Positions 7,264 to 26,765 of a stretch of 56,909 bases of DNA are shown one piece after another (within the stretch, counting starts at the first letter, position 1; each line of letters starts with the position of its first letter). The stretch is from Thermodesulfovibrionia bacterium. GTDB taxonomy: Bacteria > Nitrospirota > Thermodesulfovibrionia > UBA6902. Made by a program: the position numbers and the translations under genes. Under the pieces are notes generated by a model that was not told the origin of the DNA, ran no database searches, and saw only the letters and a program-made list of their open reading frames with translations. Where the stretch lies: NCBI GenBank assembly GCA_947259645.1, contig CAMYND010000026.1, positions 1-56,909 on the forward strand, read 5' to 3'.

Positions 7264-8763
7264 TCAGTCTCTGCCGTAGAGACGAGTAAGTTTTGCGAGC
7301 TTTTTCGCTAAGTCTGACGAGAGTTGATCCGGACTGACCCTCCACTCCCAGTTTCCTTCCGGTCCCGCAGGGAGGTTCATCCGGTCCTTCTCGTCAAGGC
7401 CGAGAATGTCCTGCATCATGATAACTGACATATTTGCCACAGACATCATGACAAGTCTTATGAGGTCCCAGTGAATAGTATTTTCATTGACTTCCCTGCC
7501 GATGTACCCGGATATCCTGTCTTTATCATCAGCAGATAATTCTTTTTTGAACCACCCCTTAATCGTGTTGTTGTCGTGTGTACCGGGATACGCAACACAG
7601 TTAGTCCTGTGGTTATGGGGTGCATATGGATTTTCAGGGAGGTCTTTACCAAAGGCAAAAAGAAGGACCTTCATTCCGGGAAAACCGAACTTTTCCATAA
7701 CTTCTCTCACATCAGGAGTTATGATGCCCAGATCTTCAGCAATGATCGAAATGTCAGGAAAGCGGCTCAGCACAGCGTTAAAGAAATCCTCTGCCGGCGC
7801 GTCAGTCCATTTTCCATTGATCGCGGTTTTTTCGCTGGAATGAACGCTCCAGTAGCCCACAAAACCCCTGAAGTGGTCGATTCTGAAGAGATGAAACAGC
7901 TTCAGGTTGTGCTCTATCCTCCTGAGCCACCATGAATAATCTTTTTCTTTAATAACATCCCAGTGATAAACAGGATGTCCCCAGAGTTGTCCTGTTGAAC
8001 TAAAATAATCAGGGGGGACACCAGCAACAAAAAGAGGTTTTTTCTTTTCATCCAGACTGAATATTTCAGGGTTTGCCCAGACATCGGCACTGTCATAATT
8101 CACATAAATCGGGATATCCCCGAAGATCTTTATATTCTTGCTGTCACAATAGTTCTTCAGCGAAAGCCACTGGCTGAAAAAAATGAATTGAAGAAATTTT
8201 TCTTTCAGGATAGTGTCGCTCAGAAGCCCGGAATACTCAACAAGGGCACCGTGCTTTCTGTCTCGCAATTCCGCAGGCCACTCGCCCCAGGAAAGGCCAT
8301 TGAGGTGATCTTTGAGAGACATAAAAAGACTGTAATCATCAAGCCACCCTGAATTCTCAGAGCAAAACTTCTGAAATTCATGATGGGTAGCTAATGATAC
8401 GCTGTTTTTTTCAAAGGCCAGGCTGAACAGGGTTTTTTTGAAAAGCATTACTTCAGAATACGCAACGTTACTGTCGGAAAAGTCCGGCAAATCCTTAATA
8501 TCCCCCTCAGAGAGATAGCCGTGTTTAACCATCTGGTCGGGACTTATCAGAAGGGGATTTCCGGCAAAAGCTGAGAAACTGCTGTATGGAGAGTTGCCAT
8601 ATTTCGAACAGGTGATATTAAGTGGGAGAATCTGCCAGTATTTCTGCCTGGATTCGGAAAGAAAGTCAGCGAAATTGTACGCACCAGTTCCCATGTCTCC
8701 AATGCCATAGGGAGAAGGCAGGGATGTTATATGGAGAAGTATGCCGCAGCCCCGCTCTTTCAC
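7264..8763 (-). CDS. malQ: 4-alpha-glucanotransferase (GH77 amylomaltase)
   Basis: The 499-residue protein is full length for bacterial MalQ. The catalytic residues are visible: nucleophile Asp296 in FRIDHFRGF, acid/base Glu343 in IIAEDLG and transition-state Asp397 in GTHDNNT; the N-terminal LPSPYGIGDMG is also typical. It transfers alpha-1,4-glucan segments between chains in the cytoplasm, recycling short maltodextrins. The start is GTG with an excellent ribosome site (aggagg, 7-base spacer). It follows the DUF3536 gene on the same strand after 106 bases and is probably co-transcribed with it, marking the edge of the glucan region. Confidence 0.96.
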   Translation of the reverse strand: MKERGCGILLHITSLPSPYGIGDMGTGAYNFADFLSESRQKYWQILPLNITCSKYGNSPYSSFSAFAGNPLLISPDQMVKHGYLSEGDIKDLPDFSDSNVAYSEVMLFKKTLFSLAFEKNSVSLATHHEFQKFCSENSGWLDDYSLFMSLKDHLNGLSWGEWPAELRDRKHGALVEYSGLLSDTILKEKFLQFIFFSQWLSLKNYCDSKNIKIFGDIPIYVNYDSADVWANPEIFSLDEKKKPLFVAGVPPDYFSSTGQLWGHPVYHWDVIKEKDYSWWLRRIEHNLKLFHLFRIDHFRGFVGYWSVHSSEKTAINGKWTDAPAEDFFNAVLSRFPDISIIAEDLGIITPDVREVMEKFGFPGMKVLLFAFGKDLPENPYAPHNHRTNCVAYPGTHDNNTIKGWFKKELSADDKDRISGYIGREVNENTIHWDLIRLVMMSVANMSVIMMQDILGLDEKDRMNLPAGPEGNWEWRVSPDQLSSDLAKKLAKLTRLYGRD

Positions 8764-8869: not shown

Positions 8870-11290
8870 TCAAATTTTTACGTTCAGCTGGAATCCAAGA
8901 GACCGGAATGCCTCTATCCAGAGCTTGGATGATGAATTTTCCTGTCCGCTACTATCTATCATTTTAGCGCCGTAATTGCGGTTTATGTGAAAATAGGTGT
9001 TCTGGGCGCCCCAGAGATTTAACGGCAGGTTCAGGGGATTCAGAACTTCCAGCGCATTGTCGATCGATTGTATGAGCTTTCTGTCCTGCGGGACAAGACT
9101 CAGAATTTCCATTGAAGCGTTGACCCAGGAGCTTACCTTGAATCCGGTGGTTGTCTTGTCTACATTTGTCTTCCATCTCTCCGCTTCATCGATTACCCGT
9201 TTTAATTTTTCTATATCCACACTTTCTTCCTCAAATATTTTTTTCAGCTCCGAGTTTATTACATATTCTGCTGCTGCGAGAAAAGGTCGGGGAAGTTTCT
9301 GCTGCAGGCTGTTGTAGAAATTCATTATCGTATAATTGTGATCATAAATCTGCCGGTACGATGCTTCAACACCTTCGTATGTGAGCTGCAATATCTGGTC
9401 AAGGACCTTTCTCTGTTCATCCTTGAAGAGATGGTCAAGAGAGTAGATTTTCCCTTCGAAGTGTTTATCCATGACCCTTATGACTTCAGGTACGTCTCCT
9501 TTTTCAAAGGCGCTGGTAATCTCTGTTTGCATGAGAATAAAATCAGAAACATCTCCTGCGTCGCGTATCCCGGCGTTGATATTCTGATCGCCAAGATGGA
9601 GGACAGCAAAGGTGATATATTTGTCGTCCCACGTGATTTCAGACTTTAAGCTGGCGCGTCCGGTTGCGAGAATTAATCTTCCTGCTTCGCTCCGTTCATA
9701 GACCTCACTCTTGGCTTTGAAGCAATAGAGCATTATCTCTTCAGGGTAATTTTCAAAAATTGACGATATGCTGTAGTGAGCTCCAACGCGATGCATGTCG
9801 GTTCTGGAAGGTTTTACAAATTTGTTATAGATTTCAGCACCGTTTTTATAAACATTGCTTGGTGCAGCTTCAAGGTGCCTGAGGTATTCATCCTCAAGGG
9901 ACAGTCCTGTCAGATCTTCCGTATATTGAATCGCCTTTGAGGCGTACTGCATTATTTGAATTGTTTCGATTCCGGAGATCTCATCAAAGAACCAGCCGCA
10001 GCTTGTATACATGAGCATTGCGTTTCGCTGTATTTCAAGGAGCTTCAGGACAGCCATCTTTTCTTCCGGCCCCAGATCTTTGACAGAATGCTTTTTCAAG
10101 AACTGCTCAACATTTTCCTGGCTCCTGTTGCCAATCAGGTCAATATAGCTGTCTCTTGCTTCCCATGGTTTTGCCAGGTATTTTGCAGCTTCCTCTGTGT
10201 AAATTTGGACGAGGTTGTCTCTGAGCCAGTCCATGGCTTTTCTCAGGTGTTTTCGCCATTCCTGGCTCCAGTTATAACGGGAACCGGTATGGCACCCGCA
10301 GTCATCACGCCATCTTTCCACACCATGGACACAGCTCCATGATGAATTTTCAAATATCTGAACAGCATGCGTCGGAGGATTAATTGAGAGATATTCGCTG
10401 TAGTTCGTCAGCTGTGCGTGATTGTTTGATTCTATATGATGGAGTGCATAAGATAGTGCCATATCTCCAAAGCGGTGATGATGGCCGTAAGTTTCACCGT
10501 CAGTCCCGATGTGAACGAGCTGGGGCCAGTTTCTCCGGTCGTTAAAGGCGGAAAGCAGTTTGTGGGCGAAATCTTCACCGTTTTTCAGAAGTGGTCCAAA
10601 GGATACCTCCTGTGAGATCGGCCCATCATAGAAAAAAAGGTTAATGCTTCTTCCCGAGGGCAGGAGGCAGAGGTAGGACCTCGTAGGATCGATTTTTTCC
10701 CCCCTCACGTCACGCCATTCACCGTCATCGCTGAGACTCCGAATCCTTTTGGCCTGTCTCGGAGAAAGCACAGTGAATGTAATTCCCAGACTGACAAGGA
10801 CCTCCAGTGTTTCCTCATCTACCGCGGTTTCCGGCAGCCACATCCCTTCGGGAGGCCTGCCGAACCTCTTTTCAAAATCAGACGCCCCCCATGTTATCTG
10901 GGTATACTTGTCTCTCCTGTTGGCAAGTGGCATTATCATATGGTTGTAGGCCTGCGCCATGGCTGATCCATGGCCTGAAAATTTTTTCATGCTCAACCTG
11001 TCAGCTTCAATTATTGCTTCATAGACCGCTGGTTGCCGCCGTTCAAGCCATGAGAGAAGAGTAGGGCCGAAATCAAAGCTGATATTCGAATAGATGTTTA
11101 CAATATCAATAATTTTCTTTTCATTGTTAAGGATTCGGGAGGCCGCGTTCGGGGCATAACATTCAGATGTTATCCGTTCGTTCCAGTCATGATAGGGGTA
11201 TGCGGAGTCCTGAACTTCAATCTCTTCAAGCCACGCGTTTTCCCTGGGCGGCTGATAAAAATGACCATGTATACATATGTATCGTTTCAT
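8870..11290 (-). CDS. GH57-family glycoside hydrolase with DUF3536 domain
   Basis: The 806-residue protein opens with the GH57 motif HGHFYQPPRENAWLE (residues 8-22). It also has GMWLPETAV (candidate nucleophile Glu154) and HIGTDGETYGHHHRFGD (about 260-276, with acidic and His residues of the fourth GH57 motif). The C-terminal half is the DUF3536 region. Proteins of this build are common beside bacterial glycogen genes, but their substrate is not settled; alpha-amylase or glucan-debranching-like activity on stored glucan is a reasonable inference. No signal peptide is seen, so it is cytoplasmic. It is divergent from the water dikinase gene across an 80-180 base promoter region and upstream of malQ. 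Confidence 0.88.
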   Translation of the reverse strand: MKRYICIHGHFYQPPRENAWLEEIEVQDSAYPYHDWNERITSECYAPNAASRILNNEKKIIDIVNIYSNISFDFGPTLLSWLERRQPAVYEAIIEADRLSMKKFSGHGSAMAQAYNHMIMPLANRRDKYTQITWGASDFEKRFGRPPEGMWLPETAVDEETLEVLVSLGITFTVLSPRQAKRIRSLSDDGEWRDVRGEKIDPTRSYLCLLPSGRSINLFFYDGPISQEVSFGPLLKNGEDFAHKLLSAFNDRRNWPQLVHIGTDGETYGHHHRFGDMALSYALHHIESNNHAQLTNYSEYLSINPPTHAVQIFENSSWSCVHGVERWRDDCGCHTGSRYNWSQEWRKHLRKAMDWLRDNLVQIYTEEAAKYLAKPWEARDSYIDLIGNRSQENVEQFLKKHSVKDLGPEEKMAVLKLLEIQRNAMLMYTSCGWFFDEISGIETIQIMQYASKAIQYTEDLTGLSLEDEYLRHLEAAPSNVYKNGAEIYNKFVKPSRTDMHRVGAHYSISSIFENYPEEIMLYCFKAKSEVYERSEAGRLILATGRASLKSEITWDDKYITFAVLHLGDQNINAGIRDAGDVSDFILMQTEITSAFEKGDVPEVIRVMDKHFEGKIYSLDHLFKDEQRKVLDQILQLTYEGVEASYRQIYDHNYTIMNFYNSLQQKLPRPFLAAAEYVINSELKKIFEEESVDIEKLKRVIDEAERWKTNVDKTTTGFKVSSWVNASMEILSLVPQDRKLIQSIDNALEVLNPLNLPLNLWGAQNTYFHINRNYGAKMIDSSGQENSSSKLWIEAFRSLGFQLNVKI

Positions 11291-11469
11291 GCTAAATTCC
11301 CTCTATTACTCACAAATATCGTATTGTCCTTATGTCGGGACCATACCCTGAATTATCATCTTTGACTCGATAAATGTCAATTATCTGTCTGCTTACGGAC
11401 AGTGCCCGATTCAGAGGGAGAATGTGTGCTGCTGTTTACTCCCCCGGGACAAATGAGTATATTATCAAT

Positions 11470-14400
11470 ATGACTGAAGAAATCATATTGAAAGACAGCT
11501 CAAAACTTATGGTAGAGAAAAGAGAGTTGTCCGGTAATGTGGAAGTGTTGCTGTATATGAAGGAAGGCCATAATTGCAAATTGCACTGGGGGCTGAGCAG
11601 AGAACGTGACTCAGAATGGGCCATCCCGCCGGAACCGGCATGGCCTGCGGGAAGCAGGTTAGTTGACCGTGGAGCGGTCCAGACCCCTTTTATAGCGGAC
11701 AACCATGCATACAAAGTTATCGTTGCTCTCGATGGGACCATGAACTATTCAGCTCTTGTTTTTGCCATTTACTATCCGGATACCGGAGCGTGGGACAACA
11801 ATCAGGGCAAAAATTACCGCGTAGCCTTGCCGGTTACAAAAAAAGGACCTTCCCTTGATTCAGTTCTTGAAGAAGAATCCAGAAATGGAGATCTGAAGTT
11901 CAAGGAGATATTCTCTCTTGGCAAAGAAGGTTCGCTTGCAGCTATCGTTAAGAAGGGGGGCACCTGCTACGAGGTTTTGCTGATTTCTGACCTCCTGTCA
12001 CCCATGATACTTCACTGGGGATTTGCAGTAGAGTCGCGTTATGAATGGACACTGCCTCCTCGTTCTGTTCTGCCTGAGGGTTCTGTCCAGTATGACAATA
12101 AAGCTGTCCAGTCTCCTTTTCAGCTTGAGAGCGGAATGAGCAGAATGTCTCTTAAATTCTACGAAGAGGATGCGCCTCTGGGGATACCTTTTGTGATAAA
12201 ACTCAAGCACAGTGACCAGTGGATAAACAACGGCAAACGCGATTTTTTTGTCCCCCTGACCGTTAAGGAAGAGGAAGGCGATACTGGATTGCACCAGATT
12301 GCAGGGGAAATCATTCATAGTGAAACAGGGGACCATTCCTGGACTCTGATGCACAGGTTTAATCTTTGCCATGATCTGTTAGACAGCGTTCGGAATAATG
12401 AGGAAGGCCTTGCAATTCTCTATGTCTGGATGCGCTATTCAGCGATCAGACAGCTTGACTGGCAGCGCCGCTACAACACACAACCGCGAGAATTAAGCCA
12501 TGCCCAGGACCGACTGACGCTGCAGATTGCTGATGTCTATATTCATGAAAAGCAATCAAGAGAAGTATTGAGATTAATTATCTCCACCCTTGGCAGGGGT
12601 GGTGATGGACAGCGGGTGCGTGATGAAATACTGCAGATCATGCACCGGCACCATATCAAGGAAGTAGCCGGGCATTTTATGGAAGAGTGGCACCAGAAGC
12701 TCCACAACAATACGACTCCGGATGACGTTGTAATCTGTGAAGCATATCTGGAGTTTCTCAAAAGCGATGGAGATCTGGACCGCTACTATAAAACGCTTGG
12801 GAAGGGTGGTATTTCCAGGAAGCGGATGGAGAGTTATGACAGACCCATCACGACTCCCCCGGACTTCATTCCCGGCCTCAAAAAGCCGTTGCTGCATGAT
12901 TTTGAAAACTATCTTACGCTCCTCAAATCTGTTCATTCTGGTACAGATCTTCAGAGTGCAATGAACGGTGCAGGGTACCTGATGAGCGGAGAGTTGGGCG
13001 AACTACTCTCAGCAGTGTGGCGCCACAGGTTCAGCGGAGAAGAAAAAGCCGCAGAGGTTGTCCGGAAAATCATCCGTGCCCGTTTGATCCTGAATGATCG
13101 TCTTGACATTGAGAGCGATTTAGAAAGGACCAGGGACATGTTATTTCTTGATTTGGCTCTGGAGGATTTCAATCGCATAGTCATAGAGAGAAGCGTTCAC
13201 ACTGGAATGAATGGTGACGCCCTGGTTGAATTAACTGGAATGGTTATGGAGAACATGGCATTAACCTGGAACAACGATGAGCTGTCGGAGTGCATCCGGG
13301 AGTGGAATAATCTTCTTGAGATGGAGCGATTCTCTGTGGACTGGAGCCTGCACGCAAAGGCGGTTCTTGAGAGAATCAGCAGGGTTACCGGGTATTTTGT
13401 TGATCGCTGCCATGGGCTGTTTCAGTCAAAAGCAGGGTACCTGGGCAGGGCCTTTAAAGCTGACGCCTGGACGATTTCAGTGTTTACGGAGGAAGTGGTA
13501 CGCAGTATGCCGGTTTTTGTCCTCTCCCTGCTCATTCGCCATCTTGACCCGCTCCTGCGCTCTAAGGCAGACCTTGGTGACTGGCAGGTAATAAGCACCG
13601 GAACGACTGGAGGCTGGGTTGAGATCGTGGACTCTCTGGCATCTGTTCAGGGCAGTAGTTTTGAACGACCAGTGATAATTGTTGCTGACAAAGTAATGGG
13701 AGACGAGGAACCGCCTGAAGGGGCGGTGGCTATCATAACCGCTGATACTGTTGATCTTGTGTCACACATATCTGTACGTGCAAGAAATGCTCATCTGCTG
13801 TTTGCTTCATGTTATAGTGACGCGAGCTTCGACAGCCTTAAATCTCTCAGAGGCCGCAGGATTCACCTTGATGTGTCTGTTTCCGGTGACGTGGTATTTA
13901 GCGAGACTTCGGATATGACTGATAAATCACAGGAGGTTGAAAAGTTTGAGTATGAAATAAAAGAGATCCCTGAATGCGCAGCCTATGCACTTTCTTCTGC
14001 GGAGTTCAGTGATGGTCTGGTTGGAGGGAAGTCCCTCAATCTGAGAAAACTTGAAAACAGTCTGCCCGACTGGATCCATCTGCCTGTGTCAGTTGCTTTG
14101 CCTTTCGGGACCTTTGAAAAAGTACTGAATTTAGATATAAACAAAGAGATTAATAATAGATACCATGCTCTTCTCCGCAGGGTTGACAGGCGGGTACAGG
14201 GTACGCTCAATGATGTGCGCGGTATAATCCGTGATCTTCATTCTCCTGAGGAACTGGAGTCAGAACTGAATTCAATTATGAATGACTCCGGACTTGAACC
14301 GCAGGGCCCCTGGGACAACACATGGACATGTATCAAACGTGTCTGGGCATCAAAGTGGAATGAGCGGGCATACTTTAGCCGCAGTGCCCGTGGAATCAGA

Positions 14401-14931
14401 CACGAGGATATATTCATGGCTGTGCTCATTCAGCAGGTCATTGATGCTGAATACGCCTTTGTGATTCATACGGTAAACCCGTCCTCAGGGAACCGGGGAG
14501 AGCTCTACGCTGAAGTTGTTCCCGGTCTTGGTGAAACACTTGTAGGCAATTATCCCGGCAGGGCGCTGAGTTTTATTTCTGATAAGAAAAATCCTGAACC
14601 GCAGATATCGTCTTATCCGAGCAAGAGTACGGGGCTTTATGGCGGAGGGATGATCTACCGCTCTGATTCCAATGGGGAGGACCTGTTGGGTTATGCAGGT
14701 GCAGGCCTCTATGACAGTGTTATGCTTGAACCGCCTCGGGAAGTGCTTCTGAGTTATATCCAGGACCCCCTTACCCGGGATGAAAAGTTTAAAAAAGAGT
14801 TTCTGACCGCGATCACGAAAATAGGGACGATTGTTGAGGAACAGGTCGGTTTGCCCCAGGACATTGAAGGCGTATATTCTAATGGCAGATACTTTATCGT
14901 TCAGACCCGTCCCCAGGTGGGACTGAAGTGA
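11470..14931 (+). CDS. Plant-type alpha-glucan water dikinase with two N-terminal CBM45-like modules
   Basis: The ~1153-residue enzyme matches plant GWD along its length. Two starch-binding CBM45-like modules are at the N-terminus (KLHWGLS...EWAIPP...AVQTPF and LHWGFAV...EWTLPP...AVQSPF). EEWHQKLHNNTTPDD lies near residue 404. The phosphohistidine segment SHISVRARN contains His766 (numbered from this ATG). The ATP-grasp part has KWNERAYFSR, VIHTVNPSSG, GLGETLVGNYPGRA and RSDSNGEDLLGYAGAGLYDS. GWD moves the ATP beta-phosphate to glucosyl units of alpha-glucan, releasing AMP and phosphate. The frame is open to 11374; the ATG at 11470 begins near the first conserved segment, but the ribosome site is weak, so the start is uncertain. 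It is not PPDK/PpsA because of SVRARN and the CBM45 modules. Confidence 0.93.
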   Translation: MTEEIILKDSSKLMVEKRELSGNVEVLLYMKEGHNCKLHWGLSRERDSEWAIPPEPAWPAGSRLVDRGAVQTPFIADNHAYKVIVALDGTMNYSALVFAIYYPDTGAWDNNQGKNYRVALPVTKKGPSLDSVLEEESRNGDLKFKEIFSLGKEGSLAAIVKKGGTCYEVLLISDLLSPMILHWGFAVESRYEWTLPPRSVLPEGSVQYDNKAVQSPFQLESGMSRMSLKFYEEDAPLGIPFVIKLKHSDQWINNGKRDFFVPLTVKEEEGDTGLHQIAGEIIHSETGDHSWTLMHRFNLCHDLLDSVRNNEEGLAILYVWMRYSAIRQLDWQRRYNTQPRELSHAQDRLTLQIADVYIHEKQSREVLRLIISTLGRGGDGQRVRDEILQIMHRHHIKEVAGHFMEEWHQKLHNNTTPDDVVICEAYLEFLKSDGDLDRYYKTLGKGGISRKRMESYDRPITTPPDFIPGLKKPLLHDFENYLTLLKSVHSGTDLQSAMNGAGYLMSGELGELLSAVWRHRFSGEEKAAEVVRKIIRARLILNDRLDIESDLERTRDMLFLDLALEDFNRIVIERSVHTGMNGDALVELTGMVMENMALTWNNDELSECIREWNNLLEMERFSVDWSLHAKAVLERISRVTGYFVDRCHGLFQSKAGYLGRAFKADAWTISVFTEEVVRSMPVFVLSLLIRHLDPLLRSKADLGDWQVISTGTTGGWVEIVDSLASVQGSSFERPVIIVADKVMGDEEPPEGAVAIITADTVDLVSHISVRARNAHLLFASCYSDASFDSLKSLRGRRIHLDVSVSGDVVFSETSDMTDKSQEVEKFEYEIKEIPECAAYALSSAEFSDGLVGGKSLNLRKLENSLPDWIHLPVSVALPFGTFEKVLNLDINKEINNRYHALLRRVDRRVQGTLNDVRGIIRDLHSPEELESELNSIMNDSGLEPQGPWDNTWTCIKRVWASKWNERAYFSRSARGIRHEDIFMAVLIQQVIDAEYAFVIHTVNPSSGNRGELYAEVVPGLGETLVGNYPGRALSFISDKKNPEPQISSYPSKSTGLYGGGMIYRSDSNGEDLLGYAGAGLYDSVMLEPPREVLLSYIQDPLTRDEKFKKEFLTAITKIGTIVEEQVGLPQDIEGVYSNGRYFIVQTRPQVGLK

Positions 14932-15734
14932 ATAAAATACGGGTAGGCAACCAGACCGCTTATTCCGCTGAAACACCCCTGCTGCCTTTTGAATACGCTG
15001 TATCACACGGATTCGATGCATTTGAATGGTTTCCGGACAAGGATGAATCCGGTGGAGGGTGGGATGAAGAAGATATTGACGGGGATACACGGTCTTATAT
15101 AAAGCGTTCAGCAATCGAGCATGATATAACTCTCTCTGTTCATGGGTCTCTCCATGATACGTTTCCCTTAGATGAAGCCCGTGCAGCCCTGTTCCGGAAC
15201 GTTGAGTTTGCTCAGGATATCGGCGCGATCCTGCTGAATATCCACCTTCCCGCTGATCAGGAAGCAGAGAGTTTTATCAGGGCAATGGAACCTGTGATCA
15301 AAGAAACTGACAAATCGGGCATCCGGCTTGCGATAGAAAACACCCCCCTTACAGGTCCCGGTGACTTTAATCTGTTTTTCACTCTTTTGAAGAGTCAGGA
15401 TCACCTTCCGGTTTCACATATAGGGATGTGCCTTGATCTTGGACATGCAAACCTCCATCAGTCAACACAGAACAATTACCTGCAGTTTATCGACCTAATT
15501 GGAATTCATGTGCCGATAATTCATATGCACCTCCACGAAAACTATGGAGACAGCGACAGCCACCTTACATTATTTACCGGGCCTGCTTCAGCGAATGATT
15601 CTGCGATTCATGCTGTTTTTCAGCGGTTGAAAAAGAGGGGGTACTCCGGTTCTGTAATACTTGAGCAGTGGCCTGATCCTCCGCGCATGCTTGATGAAGC
15701 CCGCAACAGACTTCTGCGAATTATTAATGGGTAA
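14928..15734 (+). CDS. TIM-barrel sugar phosphate isomerase/epimerase-like protein, coupled to the water dikinase
   Basis: The 268-residue protein is an AP-endonuclease-2/xylose-isomerase-like TIM barrel. Candidate metal ligands appear in order: NIHLPA, AIENTP (Glu), GMCLDLGHANLH (Asp/His), HMHLHENYGDSDSHL (His) and VILEQWPDP (Glu). It starts with GTG and overlaps the dikinase stop by four bases (GTGA), which implies translational coupling and a shared process. Families of this fold isomerise or epimerise sugars or cleave DNA abasic sites; the substrate here is unknown. Because the dikinase makes phosphoglucan, an activity on a phosphorylated sugar is an attractive inference but not shown. 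Confidence 0.8.
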   Translation: MNKIRVGNQTAYSAETPLLPFEYAVSHGFDAFEWFPDKDESGGGWDEEDIDGDTRSYIKRSAIEHDITLSVHGSLHDTFPLDEARAALFRNVEFAQDIGAILLNIHLPADQEAESFIRAMEPVIKETDKSGIRLAIENTPLTGPGDFNLFFTLLKSQDHLPVSHIGMCLDLGHANLHQSTQNNYLQFIDLIGIHVPIIHMHLHENYGDSDSHLTLFTGPASANDSAIHAVFQRLKKRGYSGSVILEQWPDPPRMLDEARNRLLRIING

Positions 15735-15769: not shown

Positions 15770-16432
15770 CTATAAATGAACCGGGGTCTTTGCTGCTTCA
15801 ACATTGCTGTAGTGTCCGTTGCAGGGAGATGTTACAATCATTCGATATTCGCCCTTGAACCATTCTTTTTTTATCAGCCGGTCTTCAGAAATCGAGAGGT
15901 TTTTCTCATTGAGCAGGGAAAAGAAATCTTCTTCATAGGTAACCTTCCCGAAATCTATGGTTGTGACATACTTCAGTTTGGGCTTTATAAATTCCATTAC
16001 CCGGGACCGCTCCTTGAACATCGTCTGGAAAAATACAATTTCACCCTCGGGTTTGAGGCAGTCCTTTATACGTTCAAGGACCAGTTTCTGGTCATTGAAT
16101 AACATAAAGCTCATGCTGAAAAGAACAAAATCAAAATAGTTGTTTTGAGGGGGTACGTATTCTTCTACTGATTTGTGATAAATTTCAAGGTGGTCCTCAA
16201 GGTGATACATTTTGATGAGGCGGTCACAATGATTCATGTAGCTTTTGTTTACATCAATTCCGGTCAGCTTTAAGTTTTTTGCCTTAATCAACTGATGGTA
16301 TTTATTCAGCATTGCCCCGTTTCCAATGCCCACGTCCAGGATTTTTGAATGCTCCGGAAAATAATTCAGGCAATTTTCATAGCAGTGCTCAGTAACATTT
16401 ATGATGATCAATTTGTACAGCTGGTTCTTCAT
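15770..16432 (-). CDS. Class I SAM-dependent methyltransferase
   Basis: From the preferred ATG the protein has 220 residues (the frame opens 14 codons earlier, at 16474). SAM-binding motif I is clear (ILDVGIGNGAMLNKYH), followed by an acidic residue ending strand two (LTGIDVN) and motif IV-like FDFVLFSMSFMLF. The start at 16432 has a plausible ribosome site (caggtatagat) and begins at MKNQLYKLI, close to the fold. The substrate cannot be told from sequence. It converges with the TIM-barrel gene with a 35-base gap and has lower GC content than neighbouring glucan genes, so it may be a later insertion into the region. Confidence 0.8.
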   Translation of the reverse strand: MKNQLYKLIIINVTEHCYENCLNYFPEHSKILDVGIGNGAMLNKYHQLIKAKNLKLTGIDVNKSYMNHCDRLIKMYHLEDHLEIYHKSVEEYVPPQNNYFDFVLFSMSFMLFNDQKLVLERIKDCLKPEGEIVFFQTMFKERSRVMEFIKPKLKYVTTIDFGKVTYEEDFFSLLNEKNLSISEDRLIKKEWFKGEYRMIVTSPCNGHYSNVEAAKTPVHL

Positions 16433-16547
16433 ATCTATACCTGAAATAAAATTAAAAGGCTTAGTTATTAGCAACGATTTCGTTTTCGTTACTATTTATT
16501 ACCAGATGGAATCAAATAATGCAAGTTGTGGGAAAAAAAAGATGATT

Positions 16548-17990: not shown

Positions 17991-19586
17991 TTATTTAGCA
18001 GACACACAAAATGTTCTGTAATCAATTTCAGGAAAGATGTTGTCCATGGACTCAAGGGCAATGAGGTATTTTTCGGGTATGGATTTCCCTTCGATCCGAC
18101 CTGCAAGGAAATGAAACCTCGCAATGTGGTCTTTTGCGCGGCGTCGGGCATATTCTTCGGAAGTGCCGTTATGAATAATAAATGGCCAGTCAGAGCTCTG
18201 TGCAAGAAGTAATTCACGCATGCACTGGTTGAGAGCCCTTTTTGTCAGCGCAGGGACACGTGCTTTATTGTAGAGGGCGGTGAGTTTTTCCATGCGGTAG
18301 CCGCATTCAGAGAGGTTGTGAAAGATCCAGTCAGTCTTTTCATTCATCCATGTCTGGAAGTATCCTTTATGCCCCCATGTGGAGGCAGCAGGGTAGCCGG
18401 TCTGATGGACTGGATGGCGGGTAAGGTATTCAGCCGGTGTAGTCAGCTCGAGCGTGTCCTGATCAAATGCGGATTTCCGGATCACTAAGTCAAGCCAGAG
18501 AGGGCCTTCAAACCACCAGTGGCCAAAAAGCTCCGCATCAAAGGGCGCTACCACTATGGGCGCTGTTTCCATAATTGATGAAAGGTGATCGATATGGGCG
18601 CACCGGTTGTTTAAAAAATCACCTGCATGAGCTGCTGCCTTTTCCCGGGCCTGTTCTGGCAGATAGGGCTCTTTGTCTGAAACAGGACCGGTTATTCTGT
18701 AGTACTTCATTCCCGTGTCCACACGTATATCTCCTGCAATGTATGGGTGGATGTAGTCAATGTCAAGGTCATAACCTATGTCCCGGTAAAACTCCCGGTA
18801 ATCCGGATCACCGGGATATCCTTCCTGTGCTGACCAGACCTGCTTTGTGCTGTTCCTGTCTCTGCCAAAGGCGGCAACTCCGGAGGGCGTGTACAGAGGC
18901 GCATGTACTCCGTAAAAGGGTGTTGTATCAGCATGCTCCAGACCATGAGACTCGAGGAGAAAATACTGTATCCCCTCTTTTGCGAGAAATTTGTCCAGCC
19001 CCGGGTAATAGGCGCATTCCGGAAGCCACATGCCACGAGGACGGAATCCGAGGACGCTTTCAAAATAATTGAGTCCTGTCACTATCTGGGATGAAACTGA
19101 CTGCTCATGCTGTGACAGGAGGGGAAGTATCGCATGTGTAGCGCTCGTGGTAATCAGCTCAACACTGCCGCTTTTATGAAGCTGTTTGAATGCTGTTATA
19201 ATCTTCCCTTTATAGAGCGTGCTGAACATCTCCTGAGCCTCCAGAAACAGCTGGCGATACATCAGTGCGAGGTTGTGATAGTGTGGGCTCTGGCTGTTGC
19301 GCTTTATCTCTTTCTCGCTTAATTCGATCATATTCTTCAGGTGATTTCTGTACCGTTTCCGGAGCAGAGGGTCTTCCATCATAGCGATCAGTGTCGGAGA
19401 GAGGGAGATCGTCAGCTTGAACGGGACCTGTTCATCGATCAGGCGGTTTAAGCACTTAATAATCGGGATGTAGGTTTCGGTCATTGCCTCAAAGAACCAG
19501 CGCTCCTCAAGAAATGAATCATACTCAGGGTGATGCACATAGGGAAGGTGGGCATGGAGTATAAATGAGAGGTACCCTTTAGGCAT
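17991..19586 (-). CDS. GH57 1,4-alpha-glucan branching enzyme (DUF1957 type), copy 1
   Basis: The 531-residue protein shows the GH57 branching-enzyme motifs: HAHLPYVHHPE (11-21), ATHAILPLL (149-157), GMWLPECAY with nucleophile Glu190, and APFDAELFGHWWFEG with acid/base Asp350. Length matches Thermus/Thermococcus GH57 branching enzymes without their C-terminal extension. It would cut an alpha-1,4 chain and reattach it as an alpha-1,6 branch in the cytoplasm. Its start overlaps the stop of the upstream DUF4912-glycosyltransferase gene by eight bases, so the two are translated together. A second copy at 25179 shares the layout residue by residue. Confidence 0.92.
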   Translation of the reverse strand: MPKGYLSFILHAHLPYVHHPEYDSFLEERWFFEAMTETYIPIIKCLNRLIDEQVPFKLTISLSPTLIAMMEDPLLRKRYRNHLKNMIELSEKEIKRNSQSPHYHNLALMYRQLFLEAQEMFSTLYKGKIITAFKQLHKSGSVELITTSATHAILPLLSQHEQSVSSQIVTGLNYFESVLGFRPRGMWLPECAYYPGLDKFLAKEGIQYFLLESHGLEHADTTPFYGVHAPLYTPSGVAAFGRDRNSTKQVWSAQEGYPGDPDYREFYRDIGYDLDIDYIHPYIAGDIRVDTGMKYYRITGPVSDKEPYLPEQAREKAAAHAGDFLNNRCAHIDHLSSIMETAPIVVAPFDAELFGHWWFEGPLWLDLVIRKSAFDQDTLELTTPAEYLTRHPVHQTGYPAASTWGHKGYFQTWMNEKTDWIFHNLSECGYRMEKLTALYNKARVPALTKRALNQCMRELLLAQSSDWPFIIHNGTSEEYARRRAKDHIARFHFLAGRIEGKSIPEKYLIALESMDNIFPEIDYRTFCVSAK

Positions 19587-21279
19587 TGGTCAGCCCCTTT
19601 AAAATCATTTCATAATACATGAACTGCCTCGCGGCAATCGTCTCATATGAGAGAAATTTGCCGATATTTTTCTGAGCTTCCCTTCTCAGCATGTTTTCTC
19701 CGAGAGGGTTTGCAAGCAGTTCCTGTATGCCCCATACAATAGAGCCGGGATTGTCAAAGGTAATCAGGCCGTTTTCTCCGTGCGTCACACACTGGATGCC
19801 GGATTGCTGCGTGATCAGCACCGGTTTGCCCTGTGAAATAGCCAGGCGGGCCAGCCCTTCATCCTGCAGTGTGCGGGCAGGTATGACCACAAAATCCGAG
19901 TCCATGAGCAATGACTGAAAGCTTTCTCTCTTCAGGTCTCCAGGGAACCGACACTTCTCTCCAATGCCCATGTGCCATACCCGGGATTCCAGTTCTTCCT
20001 GCAGCGGTCCGGTCCCTGCAAACACAAAGTGGGCGTTACTGTGATTTCGGCAGACAGCCGGCAGGGCATCAACCATAATATCGGCCCCGGCAGCATGAGA
20101 TATTTCGCCCGCGAAAAGTACGATAGCCGCGTTCTGGTCCAGGCCAAGCCAGTGCCTCACATCTATGGAATCGGATTGCTCCCCGGAGGGCATATCGCCA
20201 AAGACATGGGGAATAATTACAACATTTTCCGGACGGGCTTTGTACTGTTTGAGAACATCCAGCCTCGTTGACTCCCGTGGTACGATAACAAGTGAAGCAC
20301 TATCAACGGCTTTGTGCTCAATGGAAGATATTTGAGATGATGTTCTGTCTGAGGCGTCTCCTCCCGAGCGCTCATGTTCAGTTGAATACAGGGAGAGAAC
20401 AAGAGGAACATTCAGCTTTTCAGAAGCGGTAATTCCGACCTTTGACGAGTACCAGTCATGGCAGTGGATGATATGAAATGGCTTTTTCTTATGGGCTGCA
20501 CTTACCCTCCTGTATAATGTCTGGGTAGCAGCATTTACTTTTTGAATCAGTGATTTTGCGGTCAGGGCAGCCACATTCTGGGGCTGCGTTGAAAAAAAAC
20601 GGCTTTCTCCCCCCAGTATCTCAAAGGTGTCGGATATTGTTGCAATAACGGATTTTAATTGGCTTTGCAAAAGTTCGTCCCAGGTGATATTAAGAAATAC
20701 ATTGGCTACGGAAAGGGGTTCTGCCCGTTCTGTTTCAGCACGGATGGTGTTCATTTGTTCAAAGACGGGCGCGGCAAAGATGTTGCTGACTGTAAAGGTC
20801 CTGTTAATTGATCCGCCTGCGAAGAGACCAGAAACCTCAAAATTGCCGGATGGTTTATCCCGGCCCATGAAGAGTGTTCCTGAGCGCGCCAGACTATGGA
20901 ACGATCCATCACCGGTAAGAAGGCCTGTTTCCGCGAGATAGTTTCTTGATGAACCCTCAACAGTGAAATAATGACTGCCGGCATGTTCTTTTATATTAAT
21001 ATCAAAAAAAGAATGGGCATTGTATCCGTCAAAGAGGATATCGGTTACATCATAAACCCTCACAATGAGAGAGGGGAAACCTGATTTCTTAGCAAGGCGT
21101 CTGCTCATCAAATCGATAGACTTTGGTTGAATGTGCCAGTATACATGGCCTCTTCGGGGATTAATCATAAAGAGCTCTATATGATCAATCTCTGGAGTGC
21201 TGGCAGGGCTCTGGCTGACTTCCCATGCTACGTCCCTGAGTTGTTTCTGTGAAAGCTTCCTTATTTTAGCTGGCGGCAC
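19579..21279 (-). CDS. DUF4912 domain fused to a GT4-like glycosyltransferase
   Basis: The 566-residue protein has an N-terminal DUF4912 region (about 1-170: IDHIELFMINPRRGHVYWHI, FFDINIKEHAGSHYFTVEG) followed by a GT-B glycosyltransferase. The latter has HIIHCHDWYSSKVG in the donor/acceptor cleft and a C-terminal nucleotide-sugar half (VVIPHVFGDM, ILFAGEISHAAGADIMVDALP, DSDFVVIPARTLQDEGLARLAISQGKPVL), where the EX7E-type segment has QDEGLARLAIS. The HCHDW motif recalls glycogen-synthase-like enzymes. It probably extends or starts glucan chains. It is translationally coupled to the GH57 branching enzyme, and DUF4912 may be a glucan-binding module, an inference supported by a second DUF4912 gene beside the other branching enzyme. 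Confidence 0.82.
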   Translation of the reverse strand: MPPAKIRKLSQKQLRDVAWEVSQSPASTPEIDHIELFMINPRRGHVYWHIQPKSIDLMSRRLAKKSGFPSLIVRVYDVTDILFDGYNAHSFFDINIKEHAGSHYFTVEGSSRNYLAETGLLTGDGSFHSLARSGTLFMGRDKPSGNFEVSGLFAGGSINRTFTVSNIFAAPVFEQMNTIRAETERAEPLSVANVFLNITWDELLQSQLKSVIATISDTFEILGGESRFFSTQPQNVAALTAKSLIQKVNAATQTLYRRVSAAHKKKPFHIIHCHDWYSSKVGITASEKLNVPLVLSLYSTEHERSGGDASDRTSSQISSIEHKAVDSASLVIVPRESTRLDVLKQYKARPENVVIIPHVFGDMPSGEQSDSIDVRHWLGLDQNAAIVLFAGEISHAAGADIMVDALPAVCRNHSNAHFVFAGTGPLQEELESRVWHMGIGEKCRFPGDLKRESFQSLLMDSDFVVIPARTLQDEGLARLAISQGKPVLITQQSGIQCVTHGENGLITFDNPGSIVWGIQELLANPLGENMLRREAQKNIGKFLSYETIAARQFMYYEMILKGLTNA

Positions 21280-21564
21280 TGATCACCTCAATGAAGCGTT
21301 AATGGCGTAATCTTCCAGACTGCAGGTGGAAGTTGAATGAATTTTATATCACATCTTAATGGGATTGCAATAGATCTCTCTTTGTCGTAACTTCAGAAAT
21401 TATCAGGCAACGCGTTCAGAAAGCATACGATCCAGTTATGGCACTGCCTGAAAAGTTGCAACTGCTCCGGTAGAATGATATCCTTGTTTTACTGTATCTC
21501 TCGATATGGTAACGCCCGGGTGTATCATGACCGGCAGATAACAGAAACTCTATGGAGAAATAAA

Positions 21565-22866
21565 ATGGCAGATAATAAAATGATCATATACAACCTGTTC
21601 CCCCTGCTTGCCGGAAAATTCAGTGACTGGGAACCTCACCTTGTCAGGGCTTCGGACCTGGGCTTTAACTGGATATTTGTAAACCCTGTTCAGTCCCCTG
21701 GGTTTTCAGGCAGCCTCTATTCAGTTAAGGATTATTTCAGTTTCAACCCTCTCCTTATCGACGGCAACAGTAGTCAGACTCCGAAGGAGCAGCTACAGAA
21801 AACGATCAAAAAGGCAGAAGAACGTGGCCTCAGGGTGATGGTGGACCTTGTGATTAACCACTGCGCAGTGGATTCAGATATTATTAAGGATCATCCTGCA
21901 TGGTTTCAGTGGAAAAAACCCGGAAAGATATCCCATCCCTTTGCGATGGAAAACGGGAAAAAAATCGTCTGGGGCGACCTTGCCAAGTATGACCACAGGA
22001 ACAAGAAAGACGGGGAGGGGCTGTATCAGTTTTTTTTCTCCATTGTGGAATTTCTCATTGAGGTCGGTTTCAAGGGGTTTCGGTGTGATGCTGCTTACCA
22101 GGTTCCGCGAACCCTGTGGAAGCGGCTCATCAAAGAGACGAAGGACAAATATCCGGGAATAGTCTTTTTTGCGGAGACCCTTGGCTGTACTCCTGATGAA
22201 ACGAGAAAAACTGCGGATGCGGGGTTTGATTACATATTCAACAGCTCGAAGTGGTGGGACCTGAACAGCCCCTGGCTGATCGAACAGTATAACCTTACGA
22301 GGGAAACAGCTCCCTCCGTCAGCTTTCCTGAAAGTCATGACACGGACAGGCTTTGCGCGGAACTTGACGGGAATATCAACGGTATGAAGCAGCGGTATCT
22401 TTTCGCATCGCTTTTTTCAGCAGGGGTAATGATGCCTGTTGGTTTTGAATTTGGTTTCAGGAAAAAACTTCATGTTGTCAAGACCACTCCGGAAGACTGG
22501 GAAAATACACAAACAGATATATCAGAATTTATAAGGAACGTGAACAGGATAAAGGAAACGTATACTGTCTTTCAGGAGGAAGCTCCTACAGAAATACTGA
22601 ACTCGGGCAACGCTGAAGTTCTGGTGATGTGGAAGGCCTCCATATCCACTGCTGATGAGGCGCTGCTTATCCTTAATAAAGACATTAACCATAATCAGGT
22701 TTTTCAGACAAAGAGCCTCGGTGACTTCATGCAGGCAACGTCGCCCTGCAGTGATGTGTCCCCTGAGTTCCGCCTTGACTACCTTCCGGAGCCGTTTACC
22801 TATGAACTCCGTCCGGGACAGGGTATCGTTCTTATTGCATCAAGGGATCTGCCTGCAGAGGACTGA
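21565..22866 (+). CDS. GH13 alpha-amylase-family enzyme
   Basis: The preferred 433-residue product starts at the ATG preceded by tggagaaataaa. The four GH13 regions are present: DLVINHCAVDSD, GFRCDAAYQVP (nucleophile Asp), FFAETLG (acid/base Glu) and FPESHDTDRL (transition-state Asp). It is shorter than maltogenic or GlgE-type enzymes and has no visible starch-binding or N-terminal beta-sandwich domain. Hydrolysis or transfer on short alpha-glucans is likely; the exact specificity cannot be read. No signal peptide, so it is cytoplasmic. The frame is open upstream to 21475, but that part has no family-like sequence. It converges with glgA. Confidence 0.85.
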   Translation: MADNKMIIYNLFPLLAGKFSDWEPHLVRASDLGFNWIFVNPVQSPGFSGSLYSVKDYFSFNPLLIDGNSSQTPKEQLQKTIKKAEERGLRVMVDLVINHCAVDSDIIKDHPAWFQWKKPGKISHPFAMENGKKIVWGDLAKYDHRNKKDGEGLYQFFFSIVEFLIEVGFKGFRCDAAYQVPRTLWKRLIKETKDKYPGIVFFAETLGCTPDETRKTADAGFDYIFNSSKWWDLNSPWLIEQYNLTRETAPSVSFPESHDTDRLCAELDGNINGMKQRYLFASLFSAGVMMPVGFEFGFRKKLHVVKTTPEDWENTQTDISEFIRNVNRIKETYTVFQEEAPTEILNSGNAEVLVMWKASISTADEALLILNKDINHNQVFQTKSLGDFMQATSPCSDVSPEFRLDYLPEPFTYELRPGQGIVLIASRDLPAED

Positions 22867-22941: not shown

Positions 22942-24414
22942 TTACTTCTCCCGAATATAGTTATAAACATTCAGGTAGTGCTCTCCCGGGTGGTTCCAGG
23001 AGTAATCAGCTTTCATGCCATTTATCATCAGTTCTCTGAAATACTGGGGATAGGAGTACCATTTGCCAATTGCCCGGGATAATGCTGATTCAAGTCCTTC
23101 ATAGTTGTAGGTCTGGAATACATATCCGTTGCGTTCACTAAAGGGTTTATAGGCATGGTCTGCATCAAAAACTGTGTCTGCCAGTCCTCCTGTTTCCCTT
23201 ACTATAGGGACAGTTCCATATTTCATGGCGATAAGCTGGGTCAGCCCGCATGGCTCAAAGAGGCTGGGCATCACTATCATGTCCGAGCCGGCATAAATGA
23301 GATGGGCCAGTTCCTCGCTGAACCCCATCTCAAGATGACAGTCAGGGTTATTGTTCAGGAAACCCTTCAGGTGTATAAAGTGGTTGCTGATCTCACGGTC
23401 AGGGCTGGAACCGAGAAGCACAAACTGACATCCATGTTCCAGCGAATAGAAAAGGGCATGCCTGATGAGCTCAACTCCTTTCTGGCTGTCCAGTCTTCCG
23501 ATGTAGGCAACAATCGGTTTGTAATCGTTCTTGAGCAAAAACCGGTGTCGCATAACTTCCTTGTTGCCGAATTTGAGATCAATATTATTAACTCCATAGT
23601 TATAGGGGATATGTATGTCTGTCTCCGGATTCCAGATTTCATAATCTACCCCGTTCAGGATGCCTCCGATCTTGTTGCCATGTACATAAAGGGTATGACC
23701 AAGTCCTGCGTTGTGAGATGAATGTTTTATCTCATCTGCATACCGGGGAGACACGGTTGTTACAAAATTGGAATAGACAATACCCCCTTTCATCATATTA
23801 ATGGCAAAGGGATTGAAATTGTCCTGAAGCCGTTCAGGGTGGATAAAATGATCAGCACGGTATAACTCTGTTTCACGGAGAATGAACTCTCCGGCCACTC
23901 CCTGGTGTTTAAGGTTATGAAGGGTGTAGCAGACACGGGGGTGTGTCAAGCCGGCTTGCTGGTAGATTTCATAGAGCATGACAGGAACAAGGCCGGTCTG
24001 CCAGTCATGACAATGAATAACGTCAGGATTCTTTCCGGACTGATACAGAAACTCGAGGGCCGCTCTGGAGAAAAAGGCAAATCGCTCCGCATCATCGTCG
24101 CACCCGTAATAGGTTCCTCGATTGAAGAAATTTTTTTCAAATTGAGCGTCTATGAAAAAGCATTTGCGGCCATGGACAAACCCGAAAAATACAGAGCAGT
24201 GGACGCGGCGGTTATAGTAGGGCACCCACAGGTTATCGTATACCTGCTCAAGCCCGTAAATGTGATCATAGCGCATGCAGTCATACTTGGGCAGTATTAT
24301 TTCTACATCATTGCCCCGTATTTCCATCTCTCGGCTGAGCCCGAATACAACATCTGCCAGGCCTCCGACTTTCGCAACAGGGGCACATTCTGACGCTATC
24401 ATGGTTATATACAT
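22942..24414 (-). CDS. glgA: Glycogen/starch synthase GlgA (GT5), resembling plant starch synthase III/IV
   Basis: The 490-residue enzyme has the ADP-glucose-binding KVGGLAD at 15-21, IIHCHDW-type motif DVIHCHDW (131-138), GGILNGVDYEIWNP and the C-terminal EPCGLTQLIAMKYGTVPIVRETGGLAD with the catalytic Glu. VEIILPKYDCM (37-47) and GCDDDAERFAFFSRAALEFL (104-123) are closer to plant SSIII/SSIV than to classical bacterial GlgA. It extends alpha-1,4-glucan from ADP-glucose in the cytoplasm. No glgC is in the window to supply ADP-glucose. It is transcribed alone, divergent from the lone DUF4912 gene and convergent with the GH13 gene. Confidence 0.95.
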   Translation of the reverse strand: MYITMIASECAPVAKVGGLADVVFGLSREMEIRGNDVEIILPKYDCMRYDHIYGLEQVYDNLWVPYYNRRVHCSVFFGFVHGRKCFFIDAQFEKNFFNRGTYYGCDDDAERFAFFSRAALEFLYQSGKNPDVIHCHDWQTGLVPVMLYEIYQQAGLTHPRVCYTLHNLKHQGVAGEFILRETELYRADHFIHPERLQDNFNPFAINMMKGGIVYSNFVTTVSPRYADEIKHSSHNAGLGHTLYVHGNKIGGILNGVDYEIWNPETDIHIPYNYGVNNIDLKFGNKEVMRHRFLLKNDYKPIVAYIGRLDSQKGVELIRHALFYSLEHGCQFVLLGSSPDREISNHFIHLKGFLNNNPDCHLEMGFSEELAHLIYAGSDMIVMPSLFEPCGLTQLIAMKYGTVPIVRETGGLADTVFDADHAYKPFSERNGYVFQTYNYEGLESALSRAIGKWYSYPQYFRELMINGMKADYSWNHPGEHYLNVYNYIREK

Positions 24415-25178: not shown

Positions 25179-26765
25179 ATGATACGAGGATACTGGCTGC
25201 CTGTACTTCATTCTCACCTGCCCTTTGTGAAACATCCGGAACATGAATATTTTCTTGAAGAACACTGGCTCTTTGAAGCTATTACGGAGTCATATATCCC
25301 TCTGCTGATCAATATGAAACAGTTGGTTGAGGAAGAAATCGAGTTCAGGCTGACCCTGTCTCTCGCTCCACCGCTCATGGAGATGCTCTCCGACAAACAA
25401 CTCATGGAGAAGTATGAAATTTACCTCTACAGCCGTATTCAACTGGCTGAACTGGAATCAGAGAGACTGAAAAAAGACACTGATTTCCTTCCCCTTGCCC
25501 TCTTTTATAAAGAAAGGCTGAATCAGATTAAATCCTTTTTCACGGGAGTTCTGAATTCCGATATATTGCAGGGCTACCGGCATTTCAGGGACCTTGGAAA
25601 GCTTGAGGTCATCACTTCCTGCGCCACGCATGGATTTCTTCCGCTGCTCAAAGTCAACCAAAAAGCTGTTGAGGCCCAGGTTTCTCTGGCAGTAGATTCC
25701 TTTATTGGATATTTCGGCGGGCCGCCAGAGGGAATGTGGCTTCCTGAATGCGCTTACTATGAAGGGCTTGACAGAATCCTGAACATGTATGGAATCAGAT
25801 ATTTCTTTCTCGATTCAGAGGGCCTGATGTCCGGAGATCCTGTTCCGAGGTATTCTGTATATGCGCCTGTTTATACCGCGGCGGGAGTGGCAGCCTTCGG
25901 CAGGGACCCGCTGTCTTCCAAACAGGTATGGAGCACCCATGACGGGTACCCCGGTGACTACCAATACAGGGATTTTTATCGCGACGCAGGATATGATCTT
26001 GATTTTGATTATATAAAACCCTTTATCAGTCCTGATGGAACGAGGGTCTTTACGGGTATCAAGTATTACAGAATAACAGGCAGGTCTGATGCAAAAGAGC
26101 CCTATAATCTGCAGGATGCTGCTGACAAGGTGATTGAGCACGCAGTACACTTTCATGATGAACGGGTTGCGCAGATCAAAACAGTTGCCCCGATGATTGA
26201 CCGCCAGCCCGTTGTGGTGTCACCCTATGATGCTGAGCTCTTTGGACATTGGTGGTTTGAAGGCCCTGACTTCCTGTACAGGGTTTTTCGGGAAATCCAT
26301 GAAAAAAAGGAGATCAGATCTATTACGCCTTCAGAGTATTTGAAGCTGTACCCTGAAAACCAGGTGATAGCACCCAGTCCTTCGTCATGGGGATACAGGG
26401 GGTATTATGATGTCTGGCTCAATGAGGATAATGACTGGATATACAGACACCTCCATTACATGGCTGACAGGCTTGAGGAATTGGCCAGCGCCTCGGTGCA
26501 GGAGACTGATACATTGAAAATAAGGCTCTTAAACCAGATGACGCGGGAACTCCTTCTTGCGCAGAGCAGTGACTGGGCCTTTCTGATGTCGACAAACACT
26601 GCCAGAGAGTATTCATCAGCAAGGACGAAAGAGCATATCAAGAACTTTAACCGCCTTGTGGAGTGGTTCTCATCCGGAAATATTGATGTTTCAGAGTTGG
26701 AATGGATGGAGCGTAAACACTCTATTTTCGCGTTTCTGGATTTCCGTGTCTTTGCGGACAGATAG
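25179..26765 (+). CDS. GH57 1,4-alpha-glucan branching enzyme (DUF1957 type), copy 2
   Basis: The 528-residue protein parallels the copy at 17991-19586: HSHLPFVKHPE (11-21), ATHGFLPLL, GMWLPECAY with nucleophile Glu190, and SPYDAELFGHWWFEG with acid/base Asp351. Both share the conserved block GVAAFGRD...SSKQVWS. Branching of alpha-glucan is the expected reaction. It follows the lone DUF4912 gene after 55 bases, just as copy 1 follows a DUF4912-glycosyltransferase, so the pair DUF4912 plus GH57 occurs twice. A strong stem-loop ends the transcript. The copies are clearly diverged, so this is an old duplication rather than a recent one. Confidence 0.92.
   Translation: MIRGYWLPVLHSHLPFVKHPEHEYFLEEHWLFEAITESYIPLLINMKQLVEEEIEFRLTLSLAPPLMEMLSDKQLMEKYEIYLYSRIQLAELESERLKKDTDFLPLALFYKERLNQIKSFFTGVLNSDILQGYRHFRDLGKLEVITSCATHGFLPLLKVNQKAVEAQVSLAVDSFIGYFGGPPEGMWLPECAYYEGLDRILNMYGIRYFFLDSEGLMSGDPVPRYSVYAPVYTAAGVAAFGRDPLSSKQVWSTHDGYPGDYQYRDFYRDAGYDLDFDYIKPFISPDGTRVFTGIKYYRITGRSDAKEPYNLQDAADKVIEHAVHFHDERVAQIKTVAPMIDRQPVVVSPYDAELFGHWWFEGPDFLYRVFREIHEKKEIRSITPSEYLKLYPENQVIAPSPSSWGYRGYYDVWLNEDNDWIYRHLHYMADRLEELASASVQETDTLKIRLLNQMTRELLLAQSSDWAFLMSTNTAREYSSARTKEHIKNFNRLVEWFSSGNIDVSELEWMERKHSIFAFLDFRVFADR

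Follow-up and report, generated by a model that had tools for sequence, protein, structure and literature searches.

A GWD-type alpha-glucan, water dikinase in a Thermodesulfovibrionia bacterium and the conserved TIM-barrel gene directly downstream of it

The closest described relative of the gene reported here is plant GWD1 (EC 2.7.9.4; R1 of potato), in which two CBM45 modules, a central domain, a phosphohistidine domain and an ATP-grasp domain follow one another. Glucan phosphate is removed by enzymes of the SEX4/laforin type, a reaction that is important in plants and in Lafora disease. GWD has been viewed as having arisen with the plastid, and the study that reports this view also drew bacterial and cyanobacterial GWDs in its tree (PMC6260743, 2018, Fig. 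9), so bacterial GWD as such is not new. The phosphorylation of bacterial glycogen has been described as an open question (PMC13011383). We analyzed a GWD gene in a window of 56,909 nucleotides (the whole stretch of DNA that was examined) from the draft genome of a Thermodesulfovibrionia bacterium (3.41 Mb in 131 contigs, 99.6% complete). The gene belongs to a known enzyme family of which bacterial members had already been glimpsed, but in the open-access papers that we searched we did not find any description of the cassette that it forms with the gene downstream. A "GWD" match in PMC5812927 was rejected, since it is the name of a genome bin.

Judged by its sequence, the gene encodes an intact GWD-type alpha-glucan, water dikinase. 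The reading frame runs for 1,185 codons without a stop (11374 to 14931, plus strand), and the ATG at 11470, which agrees with the starts of the relatives and is the probable start, gives a protein of 1,153 amino acids. The preliminary description had claimed a full-length GWD with tandem CBM45-like modules, an intact SHISVRARN phosphohistidine segment and an intact ATP-grasp half, and all of this was borne out: the frame is open, the domains lie in the expected order (Table 1), and every Pfam domain scores above its curated cutoff (27 bits for PF23166). PF23166 and PF22973 had no matches across 14 control genomes. The central part aligns with the domain structure solved for "alpha-glucan water dikinase, chloroplastic" (9ha9 and 9qvi), and the histidine of the SHISVRARN segment, residue 766 of 1,153, is invariant in all 81 aligned GWDs.

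Table 1. Features of the GWD gene and of the genes around it (positions in the window)
Feature	Position	Strand	Evidence
4-Alpha-glucanotransferase (GH77)	7264..8763	-	PF02446, 588 bits
GH57 + DUF3536 protein, divergent neighbor of GWD	8870..11290	-	Pfam domains
GWD-type alpha-glucan, water dikinase	11470..14931	+	PF23166 twice, PF22973, PF01326, 9ha9 at E=2e-89; start from relatives; longest ORF from 11374
CBM45-type module 1 (Ig_N_CWD1)	11482..11829	+	PF23166, 70.7 bits; W40 W50 F98 W108 Y116
CBM45-type module 2 (Ig_N_CWD1)	11905..12258	+	PF23166, 84.2 bits; W183 W193 F241 W251 F259
GWD central domain	12337..13569	+	Alignment to PDB 9ha9/9qvi, E=2e-89
GWD phosphohistidine domain	13582..13917	+	PF22973, 114 bits; SHISVRARN His codon 13765-13767
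ATP-grasp (PPDK_N-like) half with RSDSNGEDL	14314..14916	+	PF01326, 95 bits
Stand-alone AP_endonuc_2 TIM barrel, 268 aa	14928..15734	+	PF01261, 99.9 bits; AlphaFold2 pLDDT 90
GH57 branching enzyme	17991..19586	-	PF03065 and PF09210
DUF4912-glycosyltransferase fusion	19579..21279	-	Pfam domains
GH13-like alpha-glucan enzyme	21475..22866	+	PF14701, PF00128
Glycogen/starch synthase (GT5)	22942..24414	-	PF08323, 222.6 bits
Second GH57 branching enzyme	25179..26765	+	Profile search

The bacterial protein resembles plant GWD1 in its domain order, its catalytic histidine and its CBM45 aromatics, and the central domain of potato GWD1 shares up to about 43% identity with the bacterial ones. We label both N-terminal modules CBM45-type because of their match to the Pfam model Ig_N_CWD1 and because of five aromatic residues, although Pfam itself names PF23166 "Ig-like N-terminal domain of GWD1" and not CBM45. 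The aromatics are W, W, F, W and F in plants (PMC7569903). The set is complete in module 2, while module 1 has a Tyr in place of the last Phe; at the equivalent place of module 2, a Tyr is also found in some plants and algae (PMC7569903). Both modules were modeled as beta-strand domains with a mean pLDDT of 90, and all matches from a fold search with the model were of a generic immunoglobulin-like kind (Z of 6.4 or less), which is uninformative for a starch-binding fold. There are clear differences from the plant enzyme as well. Many bacterial GWDs have a single module (36 of 81, against 41 with two, by a coverage rule under which some one-module sequences may have been cut short), and the protein described here leaves no space for a long transit peptide. 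The disulfide motif CFATC of plant-type redox regulation reads LFASC in our protein, with Leu in place of the first Cys, and that Cys is absent from all 81 bacterial GWDs. It is also missing from monocots and from many green algae (PMC7569903).

The GWD gene lies in a cluster of alpha-glucan genes, parts of which recur elsewhere. The GH57-DUF3536 gene is found upstream of GWD in at least six relatives (L022, L023, L027, L028, L041 and L087), and homologues of the GH13-like enzyme are close to GWD in many loci. The glycosyltransferase part that is fused to DUF4912 within the cluster is of the GT4 type. A short phosphorylase homologue is encoded elsewhere in the genome, outside the cluster. A search of the whole genome for PWD returned the GWD itself as the sole match, and a DSPc (SEX4/laforin-type) phosphatase domain was not detected in the genome.

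The most interesting part of the locus, which the preliminary description did not include, is the conserved TIM-barrel gene directly downstream, whose start overlaps the GWD stop by four bases (GTGA). A methyltransferase-like ORF on the opposite strand (15770-16474) comes immediately after it. Among the 71 loci that could be examined, i.e., those with more than 900 bases beyond GWD, the barrel is directly 3' of GWD on the same strand in 49, across phyla, and in 25 of these 49 it is fused N-terminally to a PWD-like second dikinase; the barrel of our locus is homologous to the N-terminal part of these TIM-PWD fusions. In three loci (L056, L086 and L100), the barrel and the second dikinase are encoded by two ORFs that adjoin each other. 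The barrel, either by itself 3' of GWD or joined to a PWD-like dikinase, was seen at 14928-15734 here, at 13600-17208 in L027, in L045, L046, L059 and L068, and in others. The second dikinase is likened to plant PWD/GWD3 by its domains (GWD1_pHisD and PPDK_N) and its motif (HLSHLGVRARQ); unlike the plant enzyme, it has an N-terminal TIM barrel, and CBM20 was not found in it. One PWD-like dikinase of 905 amino acids (L012, 3569-6283, genome G013) is without the TIM barrel and is encoded some 2 Mb away from that genome's GWD.

The association between barrel and GWD is also seen at the level of whole genomes. Among 295 Nitrospirota genomes, the barrel is present in 21, all of which have GWD, while GWD is found in only 2 of the 274 genomes without the barrel (Fisher's exact P of 3.6e-30, kinship being ignored). 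In 10 of the 21 carriers, the two genes are unlinked, being on different contigs or, in the single-contig genome G135, 654 kb apart, so joint transfer as an operon would not by itself account for their co-occurrence. GWD and barrel disagree in three genomes of a smaller set of relatives (G012, G016 and G028), each time at a contig end. In Planctomycetota, the barrel is present in all five genomes with GWD, but three of the eight genomes with a barrel homologue gave no GWD match. These orphans are L121 (8578-9429, G500), on a contig of 4.8 Mb; L122 (208-1101, G384), about 270 bases from the start of its contig; and L123 (4566-5630, G456), a distant homologue; no glucan genes were found among the scanned neighbors of the first two. 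Because of these orphans we reject the idea that the barrel depends strictly on GWD, and the view of the barrel as an unrelated neighbor is ruled out by the fusion, by its position in several phyla and by the co-occurrence of the two genes when unlinked. The link is strong but not absolute, and the barrel is likely a new partner in glucan phosphate metabolism.

GWD is not rare in bacteria. The phosphohistidine domain was found in 11 of 61 related genomes and, above the cutoff, in 23 of the 295 Nitrospirota genomes, and a scan with one genome per species gave at least 120 GWD loci, of which 80 from about ten phyla were kept. The records are named as Nitrospirota, Nitrospinota, Acidobacteria, Planctomycetota (including the anammox bacteria Scalindua and Anammoxibacter), Desulfobacterales and other Deltaproteobacteria, Verrucomicrobia, Gammaproteobacteria and Fibrobacteria. 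Most of the carriers are metagenome bins, and a given assignment could be in error, but no individual one is needed for the breadth of the distribution. Two scans of viral contigs found no GWD relatives. In two loci, GWD is split across two overlapping frames (L015, 4139-5752 and 5748-7562; L087, 9036-11624 and 11563-12486), which may reflect assembly error, frameshift or decay.

With the reaction taken from the family, we consider it highly probable that the gene encodes an active dikinase. The C-terminal ATP-grasp half would bind ATP and park its beta-phosphate on His766, from where the phosphate would go to a glucosyl unit of the glucan that the cell itself stores, held by the N-terminal CBM45-type modules. 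The neighboring glycogen synthase, branching, GH57, GH77 and GH13 enzymes would make and remodel this glucan, and the TIM barrel, probably cotranslated with GWD, would act on the same phosphorylated glucan. That the substrate is the cell's own glucan and not imported starch is inferred with less assurance than the dikinase reaction itself. By their record titles, several of the carriers are sediment and soil bacteria, as might suit an enzyme acting on external plant or algal starch, but the gene adjoins biosynthetic genes, namely those for glycogen synthase and branching enzymes, and the need for ATP means that the enzyme is expected inside the cell, so that we regard action on imported or external starch as quite improbable. 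As for the barrel, which we would place on the cell's own glucan together with GWD, it is most likely a metal-dependent phosphoesterase that removes phosphate or processes phospho-oligosaccharides in place of SEX4/laforin, an assignment that we make tentatively and at somewhat less than an even chance. It is the simplest proposal because the partner is a glucan kinase and no SEX4-type enzyme was detected in the genome; genomes in which no DSPc domain is detected could use a different phosphatase. The proposed role would be the same as that of SEX4/laforin, while the folds are unrelated, the barrel belonging to PF01261 and not to DSPc. Eleven residues are invariant in all 50 barrels (H72, H106, E137, D170, H173, H199, H201, H203, D210, H212 and E246), and nine of them (H72, H106, E137, D170, H173, H199, D210, H212 and E246) are candidate ligands that would fit the nine-ligand pattern of endonuclease IV; part of these were aligned to endonuclease IV, and the remainder were assigned by motif. 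The barrel profile reaches endonuclease IV with E values of 7e-6 to 0.008, and the nearest NCBIfam model is that of the phosphodiesterase CbiR (1.5e-10, under the cutoff of the model). The GWD-associated barrel has the fold of the endonuclease IV/CbiR/AP_endonuc_2 barrels and a candidate set of ligands that would fit endonuclease IV, but it is a family apart, marked by invariant motifs of its own (around IRIGNQT, FEWFPDK, HENYGD.D.HL and EQWP) and by its tie to GWD. The fold does not favor a phosphatase, since the closest matches of the barrel model are MJ1311 (Z of 24) and sugar epimerases (Z of 21 to 22), above endonuclease IV (Z of 20). Since these top matches (Z of 21 to 24) are D-tagatose 3-epimerase-like proteins and UlaE, and since ligands of the epimerase type (E137, D170, a His near position 199 and E246) are all present, the barrel could instead be a sugar or sugar-phosphate isomerase or epimerase, with glucose phosphates or phospho-maltodextrins set free from the glucan as its substrates. 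The equivalents of H72, H106, D210 and H212 are unnecessary for a one-metal epimerase reaction, however, and these four residues, which fit the further ligands of endonuclease IV, are likewise invariant; we find this function rather unlikely. The rest of the probability, beside these two, goes to some other activity.

The preliminary description had also seen the gene as bearing on where plant GWD came from, and it does bear on that question, without settling it. A phylogeny with other GWDs places the gene firmly among those of Nitrospirota, where it is grouped with two sequences at a support of 100/99, but the deep split was not polarized: the tree contained one eukaryotic sequence, the potato central domain on a long branch, with a PWD-like outgroup, and with this single domain an AU test did not reject bacterial monophyly (p-AU of 0.70). 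A rooted tree thus did not serve to show the direction, bacterial monophyly being neither shown nor rejected. In the central domain, our protein shares 67% identity with one of the two Nitrospirota GWDs, while the bacterial GWD closest to potato reaches about 42 to 43% and none goes above about 43%. Because of the Nitrospirota grouping and this difference in identity, recent transfer of the gene from a plant or alga into the Thermodesulfovibrionia genome appears very unlikely. The wider explanation, that the bacterial GWDs derive from algal or plant gene transfer, draws on the plants and algae being home to the best-known members and on the lateral transfer into some bacteria suggested in PMC6260743. 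We nevertheless judge it improbable, given the loci in about ten phyla, the higher identity within Nitrospirota than to potato and the bacterial gene set that GWD forms with the barrel and the PWD-like dikinase. A more far-reaching proposal would be that many bacteria have a full glucan phosphorylation cycle in which GWD is often joined by a PWD-like dikinase, that the barrel is a new class of three-metal glucan phosphatase unrelated to SEX4/laforin and that the cassette may have been the source of GWD and PWD for plants; taken as a whole, we think this unlikely, though deserving of mention.

In conclusion, it is the cassette and not the CBM45 modules that makes this locus of interest, and our findings suggest phosphorylation by bacteria of the glucan that they themselves store, involving a partner enzyme that is not known from plants. 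With a widespread bacterial GWD and a partner gene at hand, the questions of glycogen phosphorylation and of an origin with the plastid become testable, and the bacterial GWDs are enzymes on offer for work on starch phosphate. Should the barrel prove to be a phosphatase, it would represent a new route of glucan phosphate removal.
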